IMG/VR virus record: IMGVR_UViG_3300022745_000030
Location: 1-64,000 of that record
Reading direction: 5' to 3' (one strand)
DNA length: 64,000 bases
DNA from: a virus
The position numbers were made by a program, and so were the translations under genes. This document shows, in pieces, positions 2,336 to 64,000 of the stretch (its first letter is position 1; each line of letters begins with the position of its first letter). The notes beneath the pieces are model-generated. The model saw only the letters and a program-made list of their open reading frames with translations. It was not told the origin of the DNA and searched no databases.

Positions 2336-2830
2336 TCAGTCATGAATAGGGGTGAAAGGGGTACCGTCTACCTTGGTGTAGGCTAGCGGGATGCTTCGGA
2401 TATGTACCGGGTAGATCCGATCGATGCCTCCCGCGATTTGAGTGCAGTCACGTACTTGAAGATACGTGTCGGAAATACCCACAATTTTGTAGGTGCGATT
2501 GGAATAGGCGCCCTTAAACTCCAGGGTACCCTCACCGAGTTGCTCCAGAAACCGAATGAGATACTTCCATTTCTCCCACTGCTGGGCGTACGGGGGTTCC
2601 TGCAAATACACTCCGTAAGGCCCAGCATACTCAACCAGGACTGTAAACGACGGGTCTGTGGTGAAAATCTGCCGATCGCCGACATCCTTGCCAATGAGCA
2701 GATCGCACGGATGCAAAGTGCCATTGGGTTGCCGGTAATAGTCACCTTTCTTGATTTTTTCCGCAGGTTTGCGTTGCCGCAGCCTTGGCGTAGACGGCTC
2801 TTTAGCCAAACCTACTAGGGTAGTAGCCAT
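2336..2830 (-). CDS. Hypothetical basic/beta-rich protein
   Basis: 164 residues from the ATG at 2830, chosen because AAGGATCAAG sits just upstream; an in-frame start ten codons earlier lacks this. The gene overlaps the end of the methyltransferase gene by 29 nt. The N-terminus is rich in Lys/Arg and Pro; the rest alternates short hydrophobic strands. No recognised motif. Confidence 0.7.
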   Translation of the reverse strand: MATTLVGLAKEPSTPRLRQRKPAEKIKKGDYYRQPNGTLHPCDLLIGKDVGDRQIFTTDPSFTVLVEYAGPYGVYLQEPPYAQQWEKWKYLIRFLEQLGEGTLEFKGAYSNRTYKIVGISDTYLQVRDCTQIAGGIDRIYPVHIRSIPLAYTKVDGTPFTPIHD

Positions 2831-3566
2831 TCTTGATCCTTTCTCTTGCCGATTCAACATTCTCCAGCGAGATATCGAACCCGGTAAAACGTCTGTTTTC
2901 GCGATTTGCGACCAGTCCGGTGGTCCCGGAACCCGTAAAAGGGTCGCAAACCCAATCTCCGGGGTTAGTATACGCCAAAATCAGCCTGCGCAGGAACCGA
3001 ATCGGTAGCTGGTTAGGGTGATTTTTCCATCTTTCCTTGGAATTTCCGGTAACCCGGCCCCAGTGCGGCCCATCCGAGGGGATTCCCCATACGCAGCCGG
3101 GTACCCGAGAGCCACCTCGCGGGGAATCCTTGATTCGTTTGTCGCCGTATTTGACCCGCATCGAGGGCACCAAGACCGATTCTGGGTTCCAGGTGTAGTT
3201 TTCTGGATCTTTGGCATAGATCAGGCAGTGGGTTCGGCTGTCGATCCAGTTTGTGCGGCGACATTGGCCGAAGTTGTAGTGCCAATTGACCCAGGCAATG
3301 CGATGTAGCCCCAAAACCCTCTCAGCGTGCATGTAAAGCGTTGCGAGGTCGTCTGGGCCATAGAGACACAAAACGCCTTTCGTCGCGTACCACGCACATC
3401 CAACCCACTCTAACGTGAAATTCTCGAACTCGCATCTGGGCTTCCGGTCCTGGAAGCCCTTGTAGGGGTGCCCGATGTTGAATGGCGGGTCGGCAAAGAC
3501 CAAATCGTAGGTTGGGGCCATCGGGAGTGCATCTAGGCACGAACTGTGAATAACTTCTGCTTGCAT
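2802..3566 (-). CDS. DNA methyltransferase, N4/N6 beta class
   Basis: 254 residues. The catalytic motif DPPF (26-29) precedes the AdoMet-binding motif FTGSGTT (210-216), the order of beta-class amino-methyltransferases that modify adenine N6 or cytosine N4. No restriction enzyme gene lies beside it, so it probably protects phage DNA from host restriction or marks it for another purpose. The target sequence cannot be read from the protein. A minus-strand -10 TATACT (3594-3599) lies about 30 bp upstream, so this is the likely first gene of the 250-3566 operon. Confidence 0.93.
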   Translation of the reverse strand: MQAEVIHSSCLDALPMAPTYDLVFADPPFNIGHPYKGFQDRKPRCEFENFTLEWVGCAWYATKGVLCLYGPDDLATLYMHAERVLGLHRIAWVNWHYNFGQCRRTNWIDSRTHCLIYAKDPENYTWNPESVLVPSMRVKYGDKRIKDSPRGGSRVPGCVWGIPSDGPHWGRVTGNSKERWKNHPNQLPIRFLRRLILAYTNPGDWVCDPFTGSGTTGLVANRENRRFTGFDISLENVESARERIKNGYYPSRFG

Positions 3567-3593
3567 ACAAGGCTCCTTTCTGCTTGTTTTGGT

Positions 3594-3623
3594 AGTATAC
3601 GCAAAAATAGTTGCACAAAACCA
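3594..3623 (-). promoter_or_regulatory. Candidate promoter for methyltransferase operon
   Basis: On the minus strand TGGTTT (3623-3618), an 18-nt spacer and TATACT (3599-3594) precede the methyltransferase start at 3566. The -10 is good and the -35 weak. It overlaps the plus-strand promoter at 3611-3639, giving back-to-back promoters. Confidence 0.45.
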
Positions 3624-3639
3624 GGAAGTATGCTACAAT
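3611..3639 (+). promoter_or_regulatory. Sigma70-type promoter, extended -10
   Basis: TTGCAC (3611-3616), a 17-nt spacer ending in TGC, and TACAAT (3634-3639). The TG one base before the -10 makes it an extended -10 promoter. No open reading frame with support follows for 650 nt, so the product looks like a non-coding RNA. A near copy sits at 63884-63912. Confidence 0.7.
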
Positions 3640-4010
3640 GTCCCCCGAATCCCGTGCGCGGGCATTCTTCATACGTCGTCGGGGGCTCTCGAAAGGGACC
3701 AGACACTAGCAAAAACAAGGCTTCCATAGAAGTTATTGGTTGTTGGTTACGGCAGGGCGTATGTGACTAGCCATACTGTGGGGATTCCCGGATACATGGC
3801 AGACCTAGGCAACGCTGAGAAGGGTCAAGCCGGGAGGGGCAGTCGGATTTGCTCCTAAAGTAGCTTAGACTGTCGAACGGGCTCCGATGTACGTTCGATC
3901 TGCGATGGGCACGGCACTACAGCTATACTCACCATCAAGCAGGCGCACTTCCTTGGCTACCGCATAGCGGTTTCTAAAGCCGGGGAAGGCTCGGCGCGCC
4001 TGCTCCAAAC
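3640..4010 (+). ncRNA. Candidate structured non-coding RNA
   Basis: This gene-free stretch starts right after a good promoter and holds several perfect inverted repeats. CCCCCGA (3642-3648) pairs with TCGGGGG (3679-3685) around an inner CCCG/CGGG hairpin. TCGAACG (3873-3879) pairs with CGTTCGA (3892-3898). AGCAGGCGC (3938-3946) pairs with GCGCCTGCT (3996-4004), enclosing CCTT/AAGG, GGCT/AGCC and ACCGC/GCGGT stems. Nothing resembles a tRNA or a known riboswitch to me. The 3' end is unclear. Alternatives are a replication origin or a packaging site. Confidence 0.35.
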
Positions 4011-4238
4011 CGGGGATACGCGACCTCAGGCATATGTTGGGGCTTGGCTGCCCCGGTATACCCGGTAGCCGACCGGTTGGGTACCTGGACTGATACCCGG
4101 CTGCCGGGCAGTCCTGGGGCCTGGGGCCTGGGCGTCTGGGGACCGGTTGCTGGGATTCGATTGAGCAAGTGACCTGGGGTTTGAATTCCGGCTGTTACCG
4201 GGTAACGGTTACTGGGAATGCCCGGTTTAAGGGAAATT
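4010..4238. other. Gene-free GC-rich spacer with repeats
   Basis: No supported gene. It holds short G/C-rich repeats, including CCTGGGG repeated in tandem near 4111-4142, a CCCGGC/GCCGGG inverted repeat near 4097-4110, and GGTTACCGGGTAACGG-like palindromic text near 4195. These resemble the repeat words at the left end of the window. Confidence 0.6.
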
Positions 4239-4267
4239 CTGACATGATCCCATTTCTGTGCTATGTT
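4239..4267 (+). promoter_or_regulatory. Promoter for HU/IHF-like gene
   Basis: CTGACA (4239-4244), a 17-nt spacer ending TGTGC, and TATGTT (4262-4267), 29 bp before the ATG at 4297. It shares the TGC before the -10 with the promoters at 3611 and 63884. Confidence 0.55.
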
Positions 4268-4296
4268 GGGTATTCCACTAACCTATCGGGGAAACT

Positions 4297-4872
4297 ATGT
4301 CGGAAGAAAAAGTCGAGAAGAAAACGTACAAGCTATCTTTCACGGATAAGGTAGCCGCCAAAGTGGCAGCCAGAACTGGTTTTGCCAAATCGGTCGTTCG
4401 CCGCGTAATCATTGCTACCTGGGAAGAGGCAGCCAACCAGATCAAGGAAGATAATGGCGGAAACATTCCCCATATCGTGCGTATCTCTGGTAGCTACCGG
4501 GCAGGGCGAGTATTCTTCCCTTACGGCGAGGATACCCCAAAGATCACCCCACCACACTTCCAGACCTCTTGCCGGGCATCCAAAGAGATTCGGGACCACT
4601 TCAAGAGCGTCGATCCCGAGTCAGAACACGGCATCAGGATCAAGGTCAAGAAGACTTTGAAGCGAAAACCGGGCTCTGCTAGCGATCTCAATGAGCGAGC
4701 AAAGCTAAAGCGAGAAGAAGCCATGCGGCTGGTGTATGAGCAAATGAGTCGCCTGGACAAAGAGGCTCACGACTTCCTCATGAAGCAGCGAGCCCAGCAA
4801 CGCAAGCAGCAACGGGCACTAGAAGCCCTGGCCGAACAAGAGAACGATCAGTCGTCCCAGGCTGGATCGTAA
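4297..4872 (+). CDS. HU/IHF-like DNA-binding protein with C-terminal extension
   Basis: 191 residues. Residues about 15-105 follow the HU/IHF pattern: two N-terminal helices (VAARTGFAKSVVRRVI), a beta arm region beginning IVRISGSYRAGRVFF, and a final segment PHFQTSCRASKEIRDHFK that aligns with the HU C-terminus. A Lys/Arg/Gln-rich coiled-coil tail of about 70 residues follows. HU-like proteins bend or compact DNA, and near a terminase gene this could help packaging or transcription. It has its own promoter and converges on the gene at 4848. The family call is by eye. Confidence 0.6.
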   Translation: MSEEKVEKKTYKLSFTDKVAAKVAARTGFAKSVVRRVIIATWEEAANQIKEDNGGNIPHIVRISGSYRAGRVFFPYGEDTPKITPPHFQTSCRASKEIRDHFKSVDPESEHGIRIKVKKTLKRKPGSASDLNERAKLKREEAMRLVYEQMSRLDKEAHDFLMKQRAQQRKQQRALEALAEQENDQSSQAGS

Positions 4873-5213
4873 GGCTGGGTTTCCTGGTCGCCGTACTTTA
4901 CAGCGTGATTGGTGAGCCATTCACGCATTGTACTACCACAACTAGCTACGTGCCCGTTCGGATGCCGTAGCTGGTAGCCCCAGGGACCTGATTCCAGAAT
5001 GTAGCCCTGCTCTCGGATCTTCTTATCCACCAATTCGAACACTGGGAATATCTCTGCCCAGCTATTGTCCATCTGAACCGCAATCGCCAGCACCTCTTGT
5101 GCTAGCGTTACCGCAGCCGGTTTGTGTTGCTGGGGCCTGGACAGGATGTACTTCGCGCGGCGTTCCAGTTCCCGGAACTCGGCTCTTGTCACTTTTTTAG
5201 GCAGTTCTTTCAT
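4848..5213 (-). CDS. Hypothetical protein, 121 aa
   Basis: The ATG at 5213 fits the promoter better than an upstream in-frame TTG inside the -10 region. The protein has a basic N-terminal helix and a C-terminal region with a WGYQLRHPNGHV-type strand pair and an acidic tail. It overlaps the 3' end of the HU/IHF-like gene by 25 nt on the opposite strand. Function unknown; being single and separately promoted, it may be an early gene. Confidence 0.65.
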   Translation of the reverse strand: MKELPKKVTRAEFRELERRAKYILSRPQQHKPAAVTLAQEVLAIAVQMDNSWAEIFPVFELVDKKIREQGYILESGPWGYQLRHPNGHVASCGSTMREWLTNHAVKYGDQETQPYDPAWDD

Positions 5214-5249
5214 TTGGTGCTCATTTTTTAGGCATGTTGACAAAAATGT

Positions 5250-5279
5250 AGTATACAATAAGGATTGCTAATATGTCAA
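5250..5279 (-). promoter_or_regulatory. Strong sigma70 promoter, minus strand
   Basis: TTGACA (5279-5274), an 18-nt spacer and TATACT (5255-5250), close to consensus, directing transcription of the 4848-5213 gene. A second TTGACA lies inverted at 5237-5242, making a palindrome around the promoter. Confidence 0.75.
5264..5274 (+). promoter_or_regulatory. Possible extended -10 for terminase operon
   Basis: TTGC followed directly by TAATAT (5269-5274) matches the TGC-plus-hexamer pattern of the other plus-strand promoters. There is no good -35 at 17 nt. It overlaps the -35 of the divergent minus-strand promoter, so the two may exclude each other. Confidence 0.35.
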
Positions 5280-5298: not shown

Positions 5299-6714
5299 AT
5301 GCAGCTATCTTACTACGAACTACTTGCCAACACTTGCCGAAACTCGTACTTCGAGTTCGTCAAGCGGTTCTGGCATACGGTTTCGCGGGAGCCTCTGGTT
5401 GCCAATTGGCACTTTCCGTACCTGTGTGCCGAGATCCAGGCATCGACCATCCGGGCAATGAATGGGGAACCCTGTCCCTACGATACCGTGGTGAATATCA
5501 GCCCCGGTACCAGTAAGAGCACCTTGTTCTCGATCTTTTTGCTCCCGTGGGCCTGGACGATCAATCCCAGCATCAAAATGATCGGGGCTAGCTTCACCGA
5601 GGCTCTGGCATTCGACTTGAGCGCAAAGTCACGGCAGGTCATAACCAGCCCTCTCTACCAGAAGTGCTTCCCGCACATCAAAATTCGGCCCGATGTGAAC
5701 AACAAAGGCCACTGGGAAAACACGCTACTGGGTGCCCGGTTCGCTGTCGGGGTGGGTGGGGACGTGATCGGTCGGCACGGTCACTTGATCGTGATCGACG
5801 ACCCTTTGAATCCCCAGGGTGCCCGATCGAAGGCAGATATCGAGCGTGCTCATATCTGGTGTAAAGAAACGATTCCAACGCGGAAGATCAACAAACAGGC
5901 AGCCTGGACAGCCCTGGTGATGCAGCGGCTATCAGTCGAGGACCCTACTGCCCTGTACCTCGCCCGCCCAAACGTCAAGCACATTTGCTTGCCCGGCGAA
6001 CTGACCGATAACGTATTTCCGGTAGAACTACGGGAAAAGTACGTGGACGGTCTATTCGACCCGGTGCGGCTTACCAGGGCATCCCTGGACAAGATGAAGT
6101 CGGACATGGGCACCTACGGCTATGCCGGGCAGATTCTCCAGACACCTATTCCGCCCGGCGGCGGGATGTTCAATACCGAGGCATTCCGGTACAGCACCGC
6201 CCAGCCGGAAGCTAGCGAATTTAAGCGGATTGTCCGGTACTGGGATAAGGCAGGGAGCGAAAAACAGGGCGATTACACCGTAGGTGTTAAAATGGGTCTC
6301 CATAAGGATGGCTCATACTGGGTGCTGGACGTGGTCCGGGGTCAATGGGCGTCCTCGGAACGGGAAGGCAAGATCAAATCGACTGCTCAGGCAGACGGGA
6401 TCGAAGTACGGATCGGACTAGAAGAGGAACCGGGTAGTGCCGGTAAGGACTCCAGTTTGATGACCATTCGTAATTTGCCTGGGTATTACGTCAGCGCGGA
6501 GAAGGCAACCGGGGACAAAGTCACCAGGGCAGATACGTTTAGCGTTCAAGTGAACGCAGGGAACGTGGTTCTGCTCCGGCGACCCTGGAACGATCGATAC
6601 GTCGAAGAGTTCATGCATTTCCCAGACGGCAAGAACGACGACCAAGTAGACGCTAGCTCGGGCGCGTTTTCGCGGCTATTCAACTATAAACCAAGATTGG
6701 GCGTATTCAAGTGA
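5299..6714 (+). CDS. terL: Terminase large subunit
   Basis: 471 residues. The ATPase half has a P-loop-like SPGTSKST (68-75) and Walker B LIVIDDP (163-169). The nuclease half has RYWDKAG (around 310), a central acidic cluster near EEEPGSAGKDSSL, and KNDDQVDASSG near 449, the acidic positions expected of the RNase H-like nuclease. It cuts and pumps concatemeric DNA into the prohead. It is the first gene of the virion operon and overlaps the portal gene by 4 nt. No small subunit is obvious; the HU/IHF-like protein or the 4848 gene are candidates by position only. Confidence 0.96.
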   Translation: MQLSYYELLANTCRNSYFEFVKRFWHTVSREPLVANWHFPYLCAEIQASTIRAMNGEPCPYDTVVNISPGTSKSTLFSIFLLPWAWTINPSIKMIGASFTEALAFDLSAKSRQVITSPLYQKCFPHIKIRPDVNNKGHWENTLLGARFAVGVGGDVIGRHGHLIVIDDPLNPQGARSKADIERAHIWCKETIPTRKINKQAAWTALVMQRLSVEDPTALYLARPNVKHICLPGELTDNVFPVELREKYVDGLFDPVRLTRASLDKMKSDMGTYGYAGQILQTPIPPGGGMFNTEAFRYSTAQPEASEFKRIVRYWDKAGSEKQGDYTVGVKMGLHKDGSYWVLDVVRGQWASSEREGKIKSTAQADGIEVRIGLEEEPGSAGKDSSLMTIRNLPGYYVSAEKATGDKVTRADTFSVQVNAGNVVLLRRPWNDRYVEEFMHFPDGKNDDQVDASSGAFSRLFNYKPRLGVFK

Positions 6715-45620: not shown

Positions 45621-46246
45621 ACGTCACTTTGAAAAGGAATGGTTTGTGGGTGCCCTTCGTATCGGTCGAGAATCTCTTCGATCCTCGCGTGCAGTCGATC
45701 GAGACTGGATTCGTTCCATAGCTCGTAATCGGAATACTTTGCCCGGCAAAGTTGCTCCGAGATGTGCGTATCTGAGGCGTTTTGTTCCTTACCGGGGCGT
45801 CGTACCCAGATAATGATTCCGCCGTGATCCCGGATGAAATTCACTTCGTTTTCGAAGCGAACATCACAGATCGCTAGGTATCGGGCATCCTTGGATCGCT
45901 GATCCATGATGTGTACCCAGCAATCAGGCCCGTGTATATCTCGCCCAGCTTCGGTGCCGACTTTCTTGAGATATTCCCGAACATCGGAGTAGGTTCGTTT
46001 CGCCATGTCCCAGCCCAGGCGATTGACTACATCCTGTAGTCGTTCGAAGGTCGCTGGTGCTGTGTCAGGATGGCTGACGCAGACCCAGGGATTGATTGCC
46101 CAGGCAGCATCGTAGACTGGGCTCGCGAATTGCCGCACAACGTAGCCGTACGTTGCGGCGAGGTATTCGCCACAAGCATTCTTGCCCGCGTTCTGGGCGC
46201 CGATGAATCCCACCATAGGTGGGATTCGTAGCGTCTGGTGTTTCAT
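45617..46246 (-). CDS. Deoxynucleoside monophosphate kinase
   Basis: 209 residues from the ATG at 46246. GAQNAGKN (16-23) is a P-loop with an unusual Asn before GK, and CDVRFENEVNFIRDHGG is the substrate-side motif of phage dNMP kinases. It would feed dNTP synthesis. It overlaps the HNH gene stop as ATGA, so the homing endonuclease may have inserted in its leader. Confidence 0.82.
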   Translation of the reverse strand: MKHQTLRIPPMVGFIGAQNAGKNACGEYLAATYGYVVRQFASPVYDAAWAINPWVCVSHPDTAPATFERLQDVVNRLGWDMAKRTYSDVREYLKKVGTEAGRDIHGPDCWVHIMDQRSKDARYLAICDVRFENEVNFIRDHGGIIIWVRRPGKEQNASDTHISEQLCRAKYSDYELWNESSLDRLHARIEEILDRYEGHPQTIPFQSDV

Positions 46247-46908
46247 TCTGAGTATGCCTTTTTGTTTGCGACCGGTGTTGTTAGCATCCGATCTGGGTTC
46301 CATTTCAGTTTACTGTATCTACCGTACAAGACCTGTAGGGGAATCCCAGTCACACGGCTCCAATGCGATAATGTTCTGGTTTCTCCCTTATACGTGATTC
46401 GTATCACGTTTCGTCGGTTTTCCGCTTGTTCTTGTCTTGTGGCCCATTTGCAGTTCGCTGGTGTATAATCCCCGTTCGTGTCGATTCTCTCTACGGTCAT
46501 GCCGGGACTTGGGGGATTGCCCATGTCCGCTAGAAATGCCAGGAAACCATTATTAGGATTATCCCAACTTTGGCATACCCGAATACCACGCCCACCATAG
46601 TTAGGCCAGGATGCGTTTTTAGGATTATTACACCTAGCCCGCATAGTTCTCCATACTTTGTAGAGGGGTGTCTTGGATAGTCCATGCGTTATACTTTCTT
46701 CTGCCGTGCGTTGATTTCTATAGCAGCCACAACTTTTTGTTTTACCGGAAACCACATTATCCGAATAGTAAATGGACAGGTCGCCGCACTGACATTCCGC
46801 CACTACAAGCCACTCTACTCTCTTGGGACGCACCCGGACGCGAAACGATGGACCGAGCACAGTCAATCTGCTACTAGAAGGGGTGACTATGCTCTTCGTT
46901 TTAATCAT
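46243..46908 (-). CDS. HNH homing endonuclease
   Basis: 221 residues from the ATG at 46908. YKVWRTMRARCNNPKNASW, NYGGRGIRVC and the HNH core PGMTVERIDTNGDYTPANCKWATRQEQA are typical of free-standing phage HNH enzymes. A Cys-rich N-terminal zinc part (CQCG, SCGCY) and a C-terminal NUMOD-like segment (THTLSHWSRVTGI-type) help DNA binding. The DNA here looks poorer in CCGGGTA words. It lies between polymerase and dNMP kinase genes, and probably cleaves an allele lacking it. Confidence 0.9.
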   Translation of the reverse strand: MIKTKSIVTPSSSRLTVLGPSFRVRVRPKRVEWLVVAECQCGDLSIYYSDNVVSGKTKSCGCYRNQRTAEESITHGLSKTPLYKVWRTMRARCNNPKNASWPNYGGRGIRVCQSWDNPNNGFLAFLADMGNPPSPGMTVERIDTNGDYTPANCKWATRQEQAENRRNVIRITYKGETRTLSHWSRVTGIPLQVLYGRYSKLKWNPDRMLTTPVANKKAYSE

Positions 46909-46927
46909 TGCTGATGCCACGTTTTTG

Positions 46928-48337
46928 TTATCCTTTATATGCTGTTTTATCGTACCAGGAGTCCCTGCCGACCTCAACCTCTACTTTTAAGTCCATAATG
47001 ATCCACTTCCACTTTGCTTGCAGGCTCGTTGTCATTATCCGAGTGGACATGGCAATGTAATCGTCCAGTTCGTCCAAAGCGACTTCTGATACCATGGAGT
47101 CGTGGATCTCTAAAATAGGTCTGGAACGCATACCTCTACGCTTTGCTTCTGCTTGAACATCAATTACGGCTTGCAGGAGACAGTGAAATGCAGAGCCCTG
47201 TACCGGGCTGTTGATGACCTCGTTTCTTTTCCAAACCCCGTGTACCCGGAACCCGGTAAGCGTCTCAAAGTAACCTTTTGTGCAGTACGAACGAAACCAG
47301 TCCTTCCGCCAGCGGTCATATACTGGAAACCGTTTACCCCAAAATGCTTCTTCTACCCGTTTGATATGCTGCACATAAGTATTAGGTGCGTAAACTACCC
47401 TACATTCTTCTCCCTCAGGAACCACACCTAGACTGGTAATACCTTTCGCGGCCAAATGCTCCAGTAAACCCATCTTCCGGGCGACCTTCCATAGTTGTTT
47501 CGCCATATCTACGTGGTAGTTACCGTACATAGCCGAAAAAACAAACCCGGACTTGGTTTCTTGGCGAATCTGTTTGAACTTCTTTGGGTTAGCTTGTCGG
47601 TAACCGTCTTCCAGCAAAAAGCACTCCACAGCCATGTCTGAGTGCATATCGTACCCAGATTCTAGGTAGTGCATCATCGTCGGGTCTTTGTGGTAGCACG
47701 CCGCGATATGCACTTCCAGTGCTGAGTAATCGATTTCCACAATCGCGAATCCCGGCGTCGGGACGATCGCCCCTTTGATGTGCTTCGCAACGAGAGGGTT
47801 TCGTGTGGGTAGGTTGTTCAGGTTCGGGGAATCCGCGCTTCCCCGATACGTGGTAACTGAGTGCAGGTTGATGAATCCGTGAATACGCCCATTGACGGTT
47901 TCCTTTCGCAAACCGTCAATATAGGTACCCTGCAACTTGTACAGCTTCTGGAGTGCCCGGTATGTTTCCAGGTAGTCATGGATGTTGTCGGGCACCTCAA
48001 GTTCGGCAATAACTTCGTCGTCAAACTTGTATTTGCCGGAACTCGATTTACCCAGATGCGGTACACCGAGTTCGTGGAATAGGATGTGGGCAAGCTGTGG
48101 CCTGGAATTGATGTTGGTTTCCTTGCCGAATCGCATTCGCTGGGCTTCGTACACTGGATGTTCCCGCAGCGTGGATTCCAGTTCCCGGATATTTTGCCGC
48201 ACCTCGATCTCAGAGGCATCCAGGCGTTCTAAACTGATCGGAATACCAATGCACTCCATTTCCGCAAGGGCTACTGCGCCCTTGTGAAACAGAGTGAAGG
48301 CTTCCTTGGTTGCTGGTCTGAGATCCTGTGCGTGCAT
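46928..48337 (-). CDS. Family A DNA polymerase, polymerase domain
   Basis: 469 residues from the ATG at 48337, in TAATG overlap with the upstream stop. Motif A EIDYSALEVH (201-210), motif B RQETKSGFVFSAMYG (258-272) and motif C IHDSMVS (HDS at 412-414, where HDE is usual). There is no exonuclease domain; that function is at 36233. It is the replicative polymerase of the phage. Confidence 0.93.
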   Translation of the reverse strand: MHAQDLRPATKEAFTLFHKGAVALAEMECIGIPISLERLDASEIEVRQNIRELESTLREHPVYEAQRMRFGKETNINSRPQLAHILFHELGVPHLGKSSSGKYKFDDEVIAELEVPDNIHDYLETYRALQKLYKLQGTYIDGLRKETVNGRIHGFINLHSVTTYRGSADSPNLNNLPTRNPLVAKHIKGAIVPTPGFAIVEIDYSALEVHIAACYHKDPTMMHYLESGYDMHSDMAVECFLLEDGYRQANPKKFKQIRQETKSGFVFSAMYGNYHVDMAKQLWKVARKMGLLEHLAAKGITSLGVVPEGEECRVVYAPNTYVQHIKRVEEAFWGKRFPVYDRWRKDWFRSYCTKGYFETLTGFRVHGVWKRNEVINSPVQGSAFHCLLQAVIDVQAEAKRRGMRSRPILEIHDSMVSEVALDELDDYIAMSTRIMTTSLQAKWKWIIMDLKVEVEVGRDSWYDKTAYKG

Positions 48338-54329: not shown

Positions 54330-54526
54330 TCTACACCATTCTTTCTTCGGACCCTCGCTGAGTGTACCGAAAATGCTAAAGACTCTTCTTTTTCAATCGC
54401 GCGAATCATCAAAATCTCAATCACCTCTCCGTAGTCCCAGCCGTTTGCCCGGCACATGGCTGCGAAGTCCTCGACCACCGCTGTCTGGATATCAGAAATC
54501 TTTAGCGAACAGCGTTTAGTCGGCAT
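54305..54526 (-). CDS. Hypothetical small protein
   Basis: 73 residues, mostly helical, starting 11 nt inside the end of the helicase gene. It resembles small RHH- or anti-type regulators only vaguely (CSLKISDIQTAVVEDFA). Function unknown. Confidence 0.6.
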   Translation of the reverse strand: MPTKRCSLKISDIQTAVVEDFAAMCRANGWDYGEVIEILMIRAIEKEESLAFSVHSARVRRKNGVEWQRKYGV

Positions 54527-56882
54527 AGGTCTCTTTCAGCATGTCCCAGATAGGTAGGCTCTTGGTCACCTGTCCGTCGATGACTTGATCCTGGATAGCC
54601 TGTTTCTTTTGGATGGCTTCGCAGAGGCGTTCCTCGATCGTACCCTTAGCCACAAGGAAGTAGATTTCTACTTCCTTGTCCTGGCCGATGCGGTGGTTGC
54701 GGTCCTGCCCCTGGGATACCTTGGTTGGGTTCCAAGGTAGCTCGCACCAGATCGTTGTAGTGGCTGCGGTCAGCGTGATACCCGAGTTACCCGATACGAT
54801 GTTGCAGACGATGACTTGGCACTCGGGGTCTTTTTGGAATCGTTCGATAGCCTCTTGCCGTTTCTTAGCGTTCACGCTCCCGTTAATCAGTACCGATCGC
54901 TGAGGATCGATTCTTCGCATTAGGACATCGGCAAAAGCGATATGGGTGCAGAAGATAATGATCTTCTTTTCCGGGTGTGTTTTTCGGTAGTTCAGAATCC
55001 ACTCAACGGTTGCCCTAGCCTTTAGCCGGGCGGATAGTCCTAGGGTGACCGACACCTTGGTCAGCGCTGCGGCTTTGAGTTCTTTCTTGATCTTGCCTTT
55101 GGCAAACCGGGATTCTTTCACCCAGTTCTTGAGATCGGTTTCTGCCTTGTCGTACTCTTCCCGATTGTCGATCTCTAGCGGAACCACAGTTGTAGTGCGT
55201 TCCGGGAGCCCGAGAATTTCTTTCTTGCGGCGAATGGTAAACGGTTTGATTCTCTGGTGTAGTTCATCTAGGTTGCTAGCGCCCGAGTAGTCCACGCCCC
55301 AGGGCGTCCTGCGCGGAGCACAGTACCGGGCACCGTATGCCGTGAAACTCGGGAACATCGCGGGCTTAATCATGTGCAGCGTCGGGTAGAAGTCCTCGGG
55401 GCGGTTCCCGATAGGAGTTCCCGACATACAGATACACTGCTTCGCGCGACGAGATAGCGAGATCGCGGCTTTGGTTACCTTGGCTGCCCGGTTGCTCAGA
55501 TTCTGCGACTCGTCGCAGATGAAGATTTCGTAGAACCAGCTACCAATTGCTGGGGCTTGGTGGTGCAGAATCGGGTAGTTGACTACCACTAGCTGGGTAT
55601 CTGGTTCGATCTCGTTAGGCGTCTCGCCTTCGAGCACCTGCACCTTGATGCCGGGTGCCCACATTTCAGCCTCGATACGCCAGTTATGCTTCACCGAGGT
55701 AGGACATACTACTATCGCAGGCCACACCTTGTCTGTGTGCAAGTATGACAGAATGCTGCCAGTATTGTGCGTTAGAATGTACCCACGTGTGACATACAAG
55801 CTGTCTGGCGCGTCTACCTTTATACATACGCACTCTTCGAATTCGCCAGTAGGTTCTACACTGGCGATTCTGCGGAATACCGCTTTCCTGCATTTTGTTG
55901 GACTGAACCTGGAAGCCTTCCGGGGAACGCTAAATGGGTTTTCCCAGTCTAGCAGTCGGATGCAGACCTGAAACTCTGTGGGTTTTCCGTGGGCTTCTCG
56001 GTTATACTCGCGGATACCGGCTGATCCTCCTATGCTTAATACTAGCTCGCTCACGTCGTGCGCTAATCTACGGCTAGTCGTATGATACGTTACTTTATTC
56101 CCTGTCTTAGATATAGACCCGTCGCAGTCCATTAGTCCTTGCAGAAGTGCTTTCCTGTCGGCTACAGAGGCTCTCTTATATTCCTCTGGTATAAACTTGC
56201 CGCCTGACAGCACATTCAAGCCTAGGCTATCAATAATACGGCGATACGGCTGCGACGTTAATCCTGTGGCGACGCACCCGATCTTTTGCCTGCTTTTTGT
56301 TATGCTCACGCCTTCCGCTTGCAACCGAGATAAAACATGCGGAGAGTCTTCGTTATGCGATGTGATAACTATACACCCTTTATGCAGACTGCCGTTTGCG
56401 ATTAGGCATCCCATTGTGTATGGGCCTATTTCGAGAGTACTTGCTACCGAGAACTCGACCGGACTTAATGCCGGTAGCAGAACAGAACGATAGCTATCGC
56501 ATCCTGACACCAATTGCTTCGCAACATCTGCTGTAGTGCATGTTCTCCAAACCCTATCCCCCTTGCGTGTAGCTCGGTTGGATATTGTCCACAGATGGGT
56601 GTTGGTGCATCTGGTGTATTGTCCAGTCTGCGTTTCCACTTTGTAAATGGGCTTTATGCCTTGGGGATATACCCCAAGCACCTTTGTCGGTTTGCCGTTG
56701 GAGCCAATAACGTAGTCCCCCACCTGTAGTGAGCCTATCGGCTTCCAACCATCAGGCGTGAGAGCAGGCTCCGACACTGGCTGGTCTTTACCTAAGCCTT
56801 GGTCGTCTGCTACAAGTGCAGTTCCATTCACGTCATGAAGGAACTGCACTGCTTCCTCTTGGTGTGGGTACAGCGTGTACAT
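54516..56882 (-). CDS. SNF2-type helicase interrupted by an intein
   Basis: 788 residues of precursor; the mature helicase would be 447. Motif I is DDQGLGK...T (26-32, then the first residue after the intein), motif II DESQ (ICDESQNLSN), motif III MSGTPIGN, and motif VI QGQDRNHRIGQ. This is the SNF2/DEAD-like core of phage helicases. The insertion splits the GKT exactly after the Lys, so the enzyme should be active only after splicing. It starts at 56882. Confidence 0.92.
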   Translation of the reverse strand: MYTLYPHQEEAVQFLHDVNGTALVADDQGLGKDQPVSEPALTPDGWKPIGSLQVGDYVIGSNGKPTKVLGVYPQGIKPIYKVETQTGQYTRCTNTHLWTISNRATRKGDRVWRTCTTADVAKQLVSGCDSYRSVLLPALSPVEFSVASTLEIGPYTMGCLIANGSLHKGCIVITSHNEDSPHVLSRLQAEGVSITKSRQKIGCVATGLTSQPYRRIIDSLGLNVLSGGKFIPEEYKRASVADRKALLQGLMDCDGSISKTGNKVTYHTTSRRLAHDVSELVLSIGGSAGIREYNREAHGKPTEFQVCIRLLDWENPFSVPRKASRFSPTKCRKAVFRRIASVEPTGEFEECVCIKVDAPDSLYVTRGYILTHNTGSILSYLHTDKVWPAIVVCPTSVKHNWRIEAEMWAPGIKVQVLEGETPNEIEPDTQLVVVNYPILHHQAPAIGSWFYEIFICDESQNLSNRAAKVTKAAISLSRRAKQCICMSGTPIGNRPEDFYPTLHMIKPAMFPSFTAYGARYCAPRRTPWGVDYSGASNLDELHQRIKPFTIRRKKEILGLPERTTTVVPLEIDNREEYDKAETDLKNWVKESRFAKGKIKKELKAAALTKVSVTLGLSARLKARATVEWILNYRKTHPEKKIIIFCTHIAFADVLMRRIDPQRSVLINGSVNAKKRQEAIERFQKDPECQVIVCNIVSGNSGITLTAATTTIWCELPWNPTKVSQGQDRNHRIGQDKEVEIYFLVAKGTIEERLCEAIQKKQAIQDQVIDGQVTKSLPIWDMLKETYAD
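55764..56786 (-). other. Class 3-type intein with LAGLIDADG endonuclease
   Basis: 341 residues in the helicase gene. It begins with Asp (DQPVSEPALTPDGW), not Cys or Ser, and ends THN before Thr of the extein. The class 3 triplet is visible: Trp66 in TNTHLW (block B), Cys321 in CVCIKV (block F) and Thr+1. The middle has two LAGLIDADG-like motifs, GCLIANGSL and LLQGLMDCDGS. It sits in the P-loop, a favoured site. Confidence 0.9.
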
Positions 56883-57289
56883 TAGAGGCTTTCGTCACAG
56901 ACTTCGACTTGGTCCCACTGGGTTTCCGAATTGTAATCGACTTCTCCGTCCGTGTCTATTTCTGCGATTTGAAATGCGTTTTGGTAAATCGCTACAATTG
57001 CTCCAACGCCTCGGAAAAGATCATTCACCGACAGCACCCATTCTGTGTTGTGGGTATCCCGGTATCGGATTGTACGCGGCTGTCCCAGGTCTTCCAGCCG
57101 GGGCTTCCGCCACTTGGTCTTTTGCAGGATGGCGGCAATGAACGTGACTTTTCCTGAGTACTTTGTAGGCTTACCATGCTCGTTGATAAACCACTCACCC
57201 GGCTTCACCCATCCGATCCGGGTAATTTCATACCCGTTGATCGAGATACCCTCTTCCAATGGAATTTTGTCTACTGATGTTTCCGACAT
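56882..57289 (-). CDS. GYEI-R-IG family hypothetical protein
   Basis: 135 residues from the ATG at 57289, with GGAG upstream. It shares a domain with the 57291 gene: GYEITRIGWVKPGEWFINEHG against PYELVRIGFPEMGEQYLDSNG, and a later RDTHNTEWVL against RDKYNEPWVY. Paralogues in tandem; function unknown. Confidence 0.7.
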   Translation of the reverse strand: MSETSVDKIPLEEGISINGYEITRIGWVKPGEWFINEHGKPTKYSGKVTFIAAILQKTKWRKPRLEDLGQPRTIRYRDTHNTEWVLSVNDLFRGVGAIVAIYQNAFQIAEIDTDGEVDYNSETQWDQVEVCDESL

Positions 57290-63547: not shown

Positions 63548-63829
63548 TGTCTACCTTTCGTTGTATGGTTGGGCCTTATGGTGCGTTCGCTAAGTCGTTT
63601 ATCAGGGTCCAAGTCCCTGTGACCGCAGCACCCCAATCCTCGCTGGTGGTAGCCCAAGGTTCACCAGTTCAGCCGGTCGCTATCCGACATCTTGCTTGTA
63701 AAAGGATCGAGTAGGATTGGCTACCTGCTTGCAACCGCCCGCTAAAAGCCGTTGCTGGCATCTCAGAATGCGGGTTCCGATCGTGGTTATCGCCACGCCG
63801 CCGATCCAAGACCTGTCAAGTCCACCCAC
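63548..63829. other. Gene-free region upstream of the 63547 start
   Basis: No supported gene. A CAGGG-TCCAAGT-CCCTG hairpin lies near 63608-63624, but without the rest of a tRNA. TATACT (63835-63830) on the minus strand is a possible weak promoter for the membrane gene. Confidence 0.55.
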
Positions 63830-63883
63830 AGTATACGCCGGGCACCCGGCACTCGGTAGTCCTATTCCCAGTTTTTTATCTGG

Positions 63884-63912
63884 TTGACAAAACCGGGTAA
63901 ATATGCTACCAT
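63884..63912 (+). promoter_or_regulatory. Sigma70-type promoter, extended -10
   Basis: TTGACA (63884-63889), a 17-nt spacer ending TGC, and TACCAT (63907-63912). It is a near copy of the promoter at 3611-3639 and also lies in front of a gene-free, hairpin-rich stretch. Confidence 0.75.
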
Positions 63913-64000
63913 GCCGGGGCTCATTCGTAGCGGGCTGCGGTGGCAGATCGGGCCGACGACGTGGTTGCAATAGCAACGGGGTCGTGCGAAAGTGGCGATA
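63913..64000 (+). ncRNA. Candidate structured RNA, truncated by window
   Basis: After the promoter comes a nested hairpin: ACGAC (63956-63960) with GTCGT (63981-63985), and GTTGC (63964-63968) with GCAAC (63973-63977), joined by 3-nt internal loops and a 4-nt loop. No reading frame is supported. The transcript continues past the window. Confidence 0.35.

Follow-up and report, generated by a model that had tools for sequence, protein, structure and literature searches.

The viral metagenome record IMGVR_UViG_3300022745_000030 comprises 69,333 bases, of which bases 1–64,000 form the stretch analysed here (the window). A simple codon-usage gene finder predicts ~90 genes and a coding density of 89%. 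The genome is organized in a leftward block carrying the replication genes (DNA polymerase, helicases, clamp loader and recombinase) and a rightward block that starts at 5299 with the terminase, portal and head genes. At the junction between leftward and rightward genes, ~1 Kbp upstream of the large terminase, lies a 730-nt non-coding gap (3567–4296) bounded by two divergent genes. On the left is an N6/N4 DNA methylase gene (2802–3566, − strand; PF01555, E 8e-33); on the right, a gene (4297–4872, + strand) encodes a 191-aa protein that is weakly HU/IHF-like (Pfam PF00216, E 0.011, under its curated cut-off; phrog_379, DNA binding, E 0.031) and for which homologue searches returned no relative. 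We considered this gene as a candidate small terminase and discarded the assignment, as it did not match the relatives' genes at the same place; a single-sequence structure model of the protein was too weak for use. A leftward gene called by the gene finder (4848–5258) stands between the HU/IHF-like gene and that of the terminase large subunit (5299–6714, + strand; phrog_38, E 1e-75).

The gap is devoid of coding signal, as judged by the gene finder and by frame inspection. Its longest stop-free frames span 69–109 codons and none matches a gene call, so that a hidden protein gene was rejected for lack of a supported frame. The codon-usage gene finder thus agrees with the earlier note, made from the letters of this DNA, which had described 730 nt without a supported reading frame in an otherwise gene-dense phage. 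The truly non-coding stretches longer than 500 nt are this gap, a second one at 63548–64639 and a tandem-repeat stretch at 68238–68814. Two other candidates were dismissed: 55695–56881 is coding and corresponds to an intein inside a helicase, and 46304–46927 belongs to an open frame that looks HNH-type endonuclease-like by eye. The former lies in an SNF2-type helicase gene (54516–56894, − strand) whose Walker A motif is split by the in-frame intein with its LAGLIDADG domain (PF14528, E 1e-10), and the latter in a frame among the replication genes (46243–46980, − strand) that resembles a homing endonuclease and has no Pfam match. The gap is not a repeat of another part of the genome, to which it shows solely short matches at chance level. 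No tRNA or tmRNA was found in the window, nor any tRNA in the remainder of the record. No Rfam family matched the window at the gathering score, and a relaxed Rfam search of 3400–4500 gave unrelated weak matches only.

The promoter scan identified a rightward sigma-70 promoter of the extended −10 type at 3611–3639 (+ strand; TTGCAC-N17-TACAAT, with TG before the −10), in full accordance with what the earlier note had read there. A near-copy (TTGACA-N17-TACCAT, with TG; 63884–63912, + strand) opens the other long divergent gap and points into it. The two promoter regions align with a Smith-Waterman local score of 43, compared to 20.4 (sd 3.7) for shuffled sequences, and 0 of 300 shuffles reach 43. 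The word TATGCTACNAT occurs twice in 64 kb where 0.04 are expected, both occurrences being the promoters that fire into the long non-coding gaps; with this recurrence, the promoter prediction is well supported. On the opposite strand, the leftward −10-type word GCGTATACT, present four times in the window (expected 0.32), is also common to both gaps, at 3594–3602 (− strand), where it is probably the methylase promoter, and at 63830–63838. As one genome holds two matching divergent promoter pairs, both pairs, in the first and in the second gap, are likely in use. A second, weaker promoter-like site (CTGACA-N17-TATGTT, with TG; 4239–4267, + strand) was detected by the same scan ahead of the HU/IHF-like gene. 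One further match to the promoter pattern (L073) was set aside, its downstream sequence not being similar.

The second gap (63548–64000 in the window, running on to 64639; L034/L072; gene finder) is, besides the first, the sole very long non-coding stretch between divergent genes. It holds ~650 nt of non-coding DNA behind the near-copy promoter, from 63920 to ~64580, with a fold z-score of −3.1 to −3.6, and closes with an intrinsic-terminator-like sequence, CCCGGCTGCCGGG-TTTTT, after which the phoH gene starts at 64640, preceded by a TATAAT word seen by eye. The two units are alike in their promoter pair, in being non-coding and in the similar spacing between promoter and gene (about 660 vs 730 nt). 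They differ in that the second one displays an unrelated body, the alignment of the two bodies being no better than that of shuffles, as well as a clear terminator and a stronger fold. In the first gap, the terminator scan found no intrinsic terminator between the promoter and the HU/IHF-like gene; the 13-mer CCCGGCTGCCGGG is present at 4096–4108 (+ strand), identical to the 13-mer that makes up the second unit's terminator stem, without a T-run here. The motifs ACCGGG and GCCGGG are ~3–4 times enriched in both gaps. The second unit is a stronger candidate for a non-coding RNA than the first.

From the spacing to the −10 element, transcription would start at ~3646, and the predicted non-coding transcript covers 3646–4235 (+ strand). 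The folding of the gap was compared with that of shuffled sequences. The + strand gives z-scores from −2.0 to −2.2 and the − strand from −0.7 to −1.0; over 3646–4296, the + strand reaches −2.2, a fold equalled by 1 of 100 shuffles, and the − strand −1.0. The best + strand values are ~−2.6 in 200-nt windows, and base-pair uncertainty is slightly below that of shuffles. Once dinucleotide content is regressed out, the gap is ordinary among all 600-nt windows of the genome, and windows of equal size often fold better. Note that such computed figures are consistent with the presence as well as with the absence of a functional RNA structure, and neither prove nor exclude it.

Several local elements are predicted with confidence on the + strand. 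A three-way junction (3670–3763) is composed of a closing helix (3670–3681/3750–3763), a GAAA-capped hairpin (3687–3698) and a second hairpin (3705–3747), with pair probabilities of 0.64–0.98. It is followed by an 8-bp hairpin (3835–3856; p 0.95), by a 7-bp hairpin (3872–3899; p 0.94) and by a long interrupted hairpin of 9 + 11 + 5 pairs (3938–4004; p 0.91–0.99) with no U-tract after it. The latter is the one element that stands out, with a z-score of −4.7 for a hairpin selected after the fact, and its 70-nt window ranks 182 of 13,854 genome-wide. The earlier note had seen five stacked stems at this position; the prediction instead gives one interrupted hairpin made of three helices. It had also described at least three perfect inverted repeats in the gap and given positions for three. 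These three exist, and those at 3873–3898 (the 7-bp hairpin) and 3938–4004 are well supported by the fold (p 0.91–0.99), but their number is not above that of shuffles and the stem of the third one is unsupported. This third repeat (3642–3685, CCCCCGA/TCGGGGG) is present in the DNA; since the predicted start at ~3646 falls inside its left arm, the transcript would miss most of that arm and the stem could not form. It receives no support when folding begins at 3646 and appears in the minimum-energy fold when folding begins at 3640. Perfect inverted repeats with arms of at least 7 number 4 in the gap and 2.0 in shuffles (16.5% of shuffles reach this), those with arms of at least 9 number 1 and 0.1, respectively (10.5% reach this), and the palindrome count is near chance.

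We searched for relatives of the gap at several levels. Blastn gave nothing meaningful among phages, and no homologue was found in the phage, plasmid and viral-contig sequences searched; DNA-pattern searches found no homologue either, and neither gap was significantly matched in 223 loci. The closest terL relatives are ~50% identical at best, none of them with a similar gap sequence, and the closest DNA polymerase relatives ~38–40% identical; capsid and PhoH searches returned no relatives. No relative was found that shows a conserved RNA shape. Of the 33 distinct distant relatives that have a divergent junction near terL, 21 keep at least 400 nt there without a predicted gene, as counted with a crude gene finder after hand deduplication of the list of relatives. 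These gap sequences are unalignable with ours, and only a few of them have even short stretches in common. A further distant relative (L142) has a gap upstream of terL (3352–4787) that is packed with GGCATACGGCCGTATGCC-type palindromes and reaches z ~−5 on folding in places; such a wealth of palindromic repeats would be expected of a DNA control region.

How does this locus compare to known systems? GOLLD and ROOL, two large phage RNAs, are likewise several hundred nt long, phage-encoded and non-coding, with extensive predicted pairing. They differ from the gap in that it matches no Rfam covariance model, at either the gathering or a relaxed threshold. GOLLD and ROOL often lie near tRNA islands (PMC12286853), if not obligatorily, whereas no tRNA was found in this record. 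The divergent early/late control regions of tailed phages share with the gap their back-to-back promoters between leftward and rightward blocks and an adjacent DNA-binding-like gene. The gap is, however, far longer than two promoters need and contains a second promoter-like site.

As would be expected of large structured non-coding RNAs in general, the gap combines a promoter of its own with the lack of a reading frame. Since a strong promoter fires into it and a near-copy fires into the second non-coding gap, non-coding transcripts appear likely on these sequence grounds, including a promoter-driven one from the first gap. This much of the proposal of a large structured non-coding RNA with its own promoter is likely, but the structural part does not fare as well: the local hairpins are confident, the whole fold surpasses shuffles by a modest margin (z −2.0 to −2.2) and is ordinary for this genome, and "large structured RNA" is, on the modelling, weakly supported as a description.

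We give about an even chance to the gap being a divergent control region, with a rightward promoter that produces a ~600-nt non-coding RNA (either a discrete one or a leader) and with a sister unit in another part of the genome. It would then be one of two divergent control regions sharing a common promoter pair; a host-type RNA polymerase would start rightward at ~3646 and a non-coding transcript of ~590–650 nt would span the gap, probably stopping before the HU/IHF-like gene, or else reading into it, that gene having a promoter-like site of its own at 4239–4267. The RNA may form local domains, namely the three-way junction (3670–3763), the hairpins within 3835–3899 and the 25-pair hairpin (3938–4004). 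What the sequence shows directly is that coding is absent, that the promoter recurs and that a terminator ends the sister unit; we infer transcription, the ends of the RNA and a role for the RNA itself instead of the DNA. In favour of this reading we counted the 730 nt without coding signal in an 89%-coding genome, the twin promoters, each leading into a long non-coding gap and similar far above shuffles, the shared leftward −10 word, the order of promoter, structured body, terminator and phoH in the second unit, and the better folding of the + strand over the − strand in the gap. Counted against it were the modest fold, the lack of a terminator in the gap, the unrelated bodies of the two units and the failure to find a homologue.

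The same promoter could simply drive the HU/IHF-like gene, and perhaps the terminase and head genes, behind a long 5′ leader acting in cis on read-through or translation. The direct succession of that gene on the same strand, the rightward head genes beyond it and the lack of an intrinsic terminator in between agree with such a leader, but the promoter-like site at 4239–4267 could serve the gene, the sister unit carries a terminator ahead of its own gene and the leftward gene at 4848–5258 breaks the path to the terminase; we take a leader alone to be possible, on the improbable side. The locus could also work as DNA, either as an operator-rich divergent switch or as a packaging or replication site upstream of the terminase, its hairpins being incidental or DNA elements. 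The gene-free junctions of unalignable sequence kept by 21 of the 33 relatives, the palindrome-filled gap of L142 and the adjoining DNA-binding-like gene all fit a DNA site. Palindromes in this gap are nevertheless not above chance, GC skew shows no turning point here (at 4-kb resolution), and position alone is a weak argument because terL identity to the relatives is no more than ~50%; we hold this reading to be unlikely.

It is decidedly unlikely, in our view, that the gap is for the most part GC-rich DNA drifting neutrally between its two flanking genes, with the promoters as the sole functional parts. The near-chance counts of inverted repeats and palindromes are compatible with drift, as are the enrichment of ACCGGG and GCCGGG in both gaps, which by itself favours hairpins, and the fact that no relative shows conservation. 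Against this, only 1 of 100 shuffles equals the fold of the whole gap, and it would be odd for a dense genome to keep 650 nt of spare DNA downstream of a strong promoter at two places. A bolder extension of the favoured reading as a transcribed control region, namely that two large non-coding RNAs from unknown families are encoded by this phage, co-regulated by twin promoters ahead of the HU/IHF-like gene and of phoH, seems to us doubtful. To our knowledge, no function is known for GOLLD, ROOL and similar large phage RNAs, and a phage in which matching promoters lead into a pair of long non-coding units would offer a compact test case; if the locus were just a control region, it would be ordinary.

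Some minor observations concern the rest of the record and the relatives. Downstream of phoH lie an RF-1-domain gene (peptide release type; 65495–65923) and a methyltransferase gene. Both ends of the record lie in tandem repeats (1–81 and about 69060–69333; ACCTGGGC ×10 and GCCCGTGTTCCSGTN units), at which the record probably stops owing to assembly, and GGGAAACA repeats are found near 68240. In two relatives (L008 and L007), the minus strand of the gaps upstream of terL carries sequence resembling a tRNA T-arm and acceptor, with no corresponding ARAGORN call. Rfam searches of the relatives' contigs gave nothing in their gaps and one twister ribozyme elsewhere, a Twister-P5 (RF02684, 52.7 bits) at 1873–1926 on the − strand of L141.
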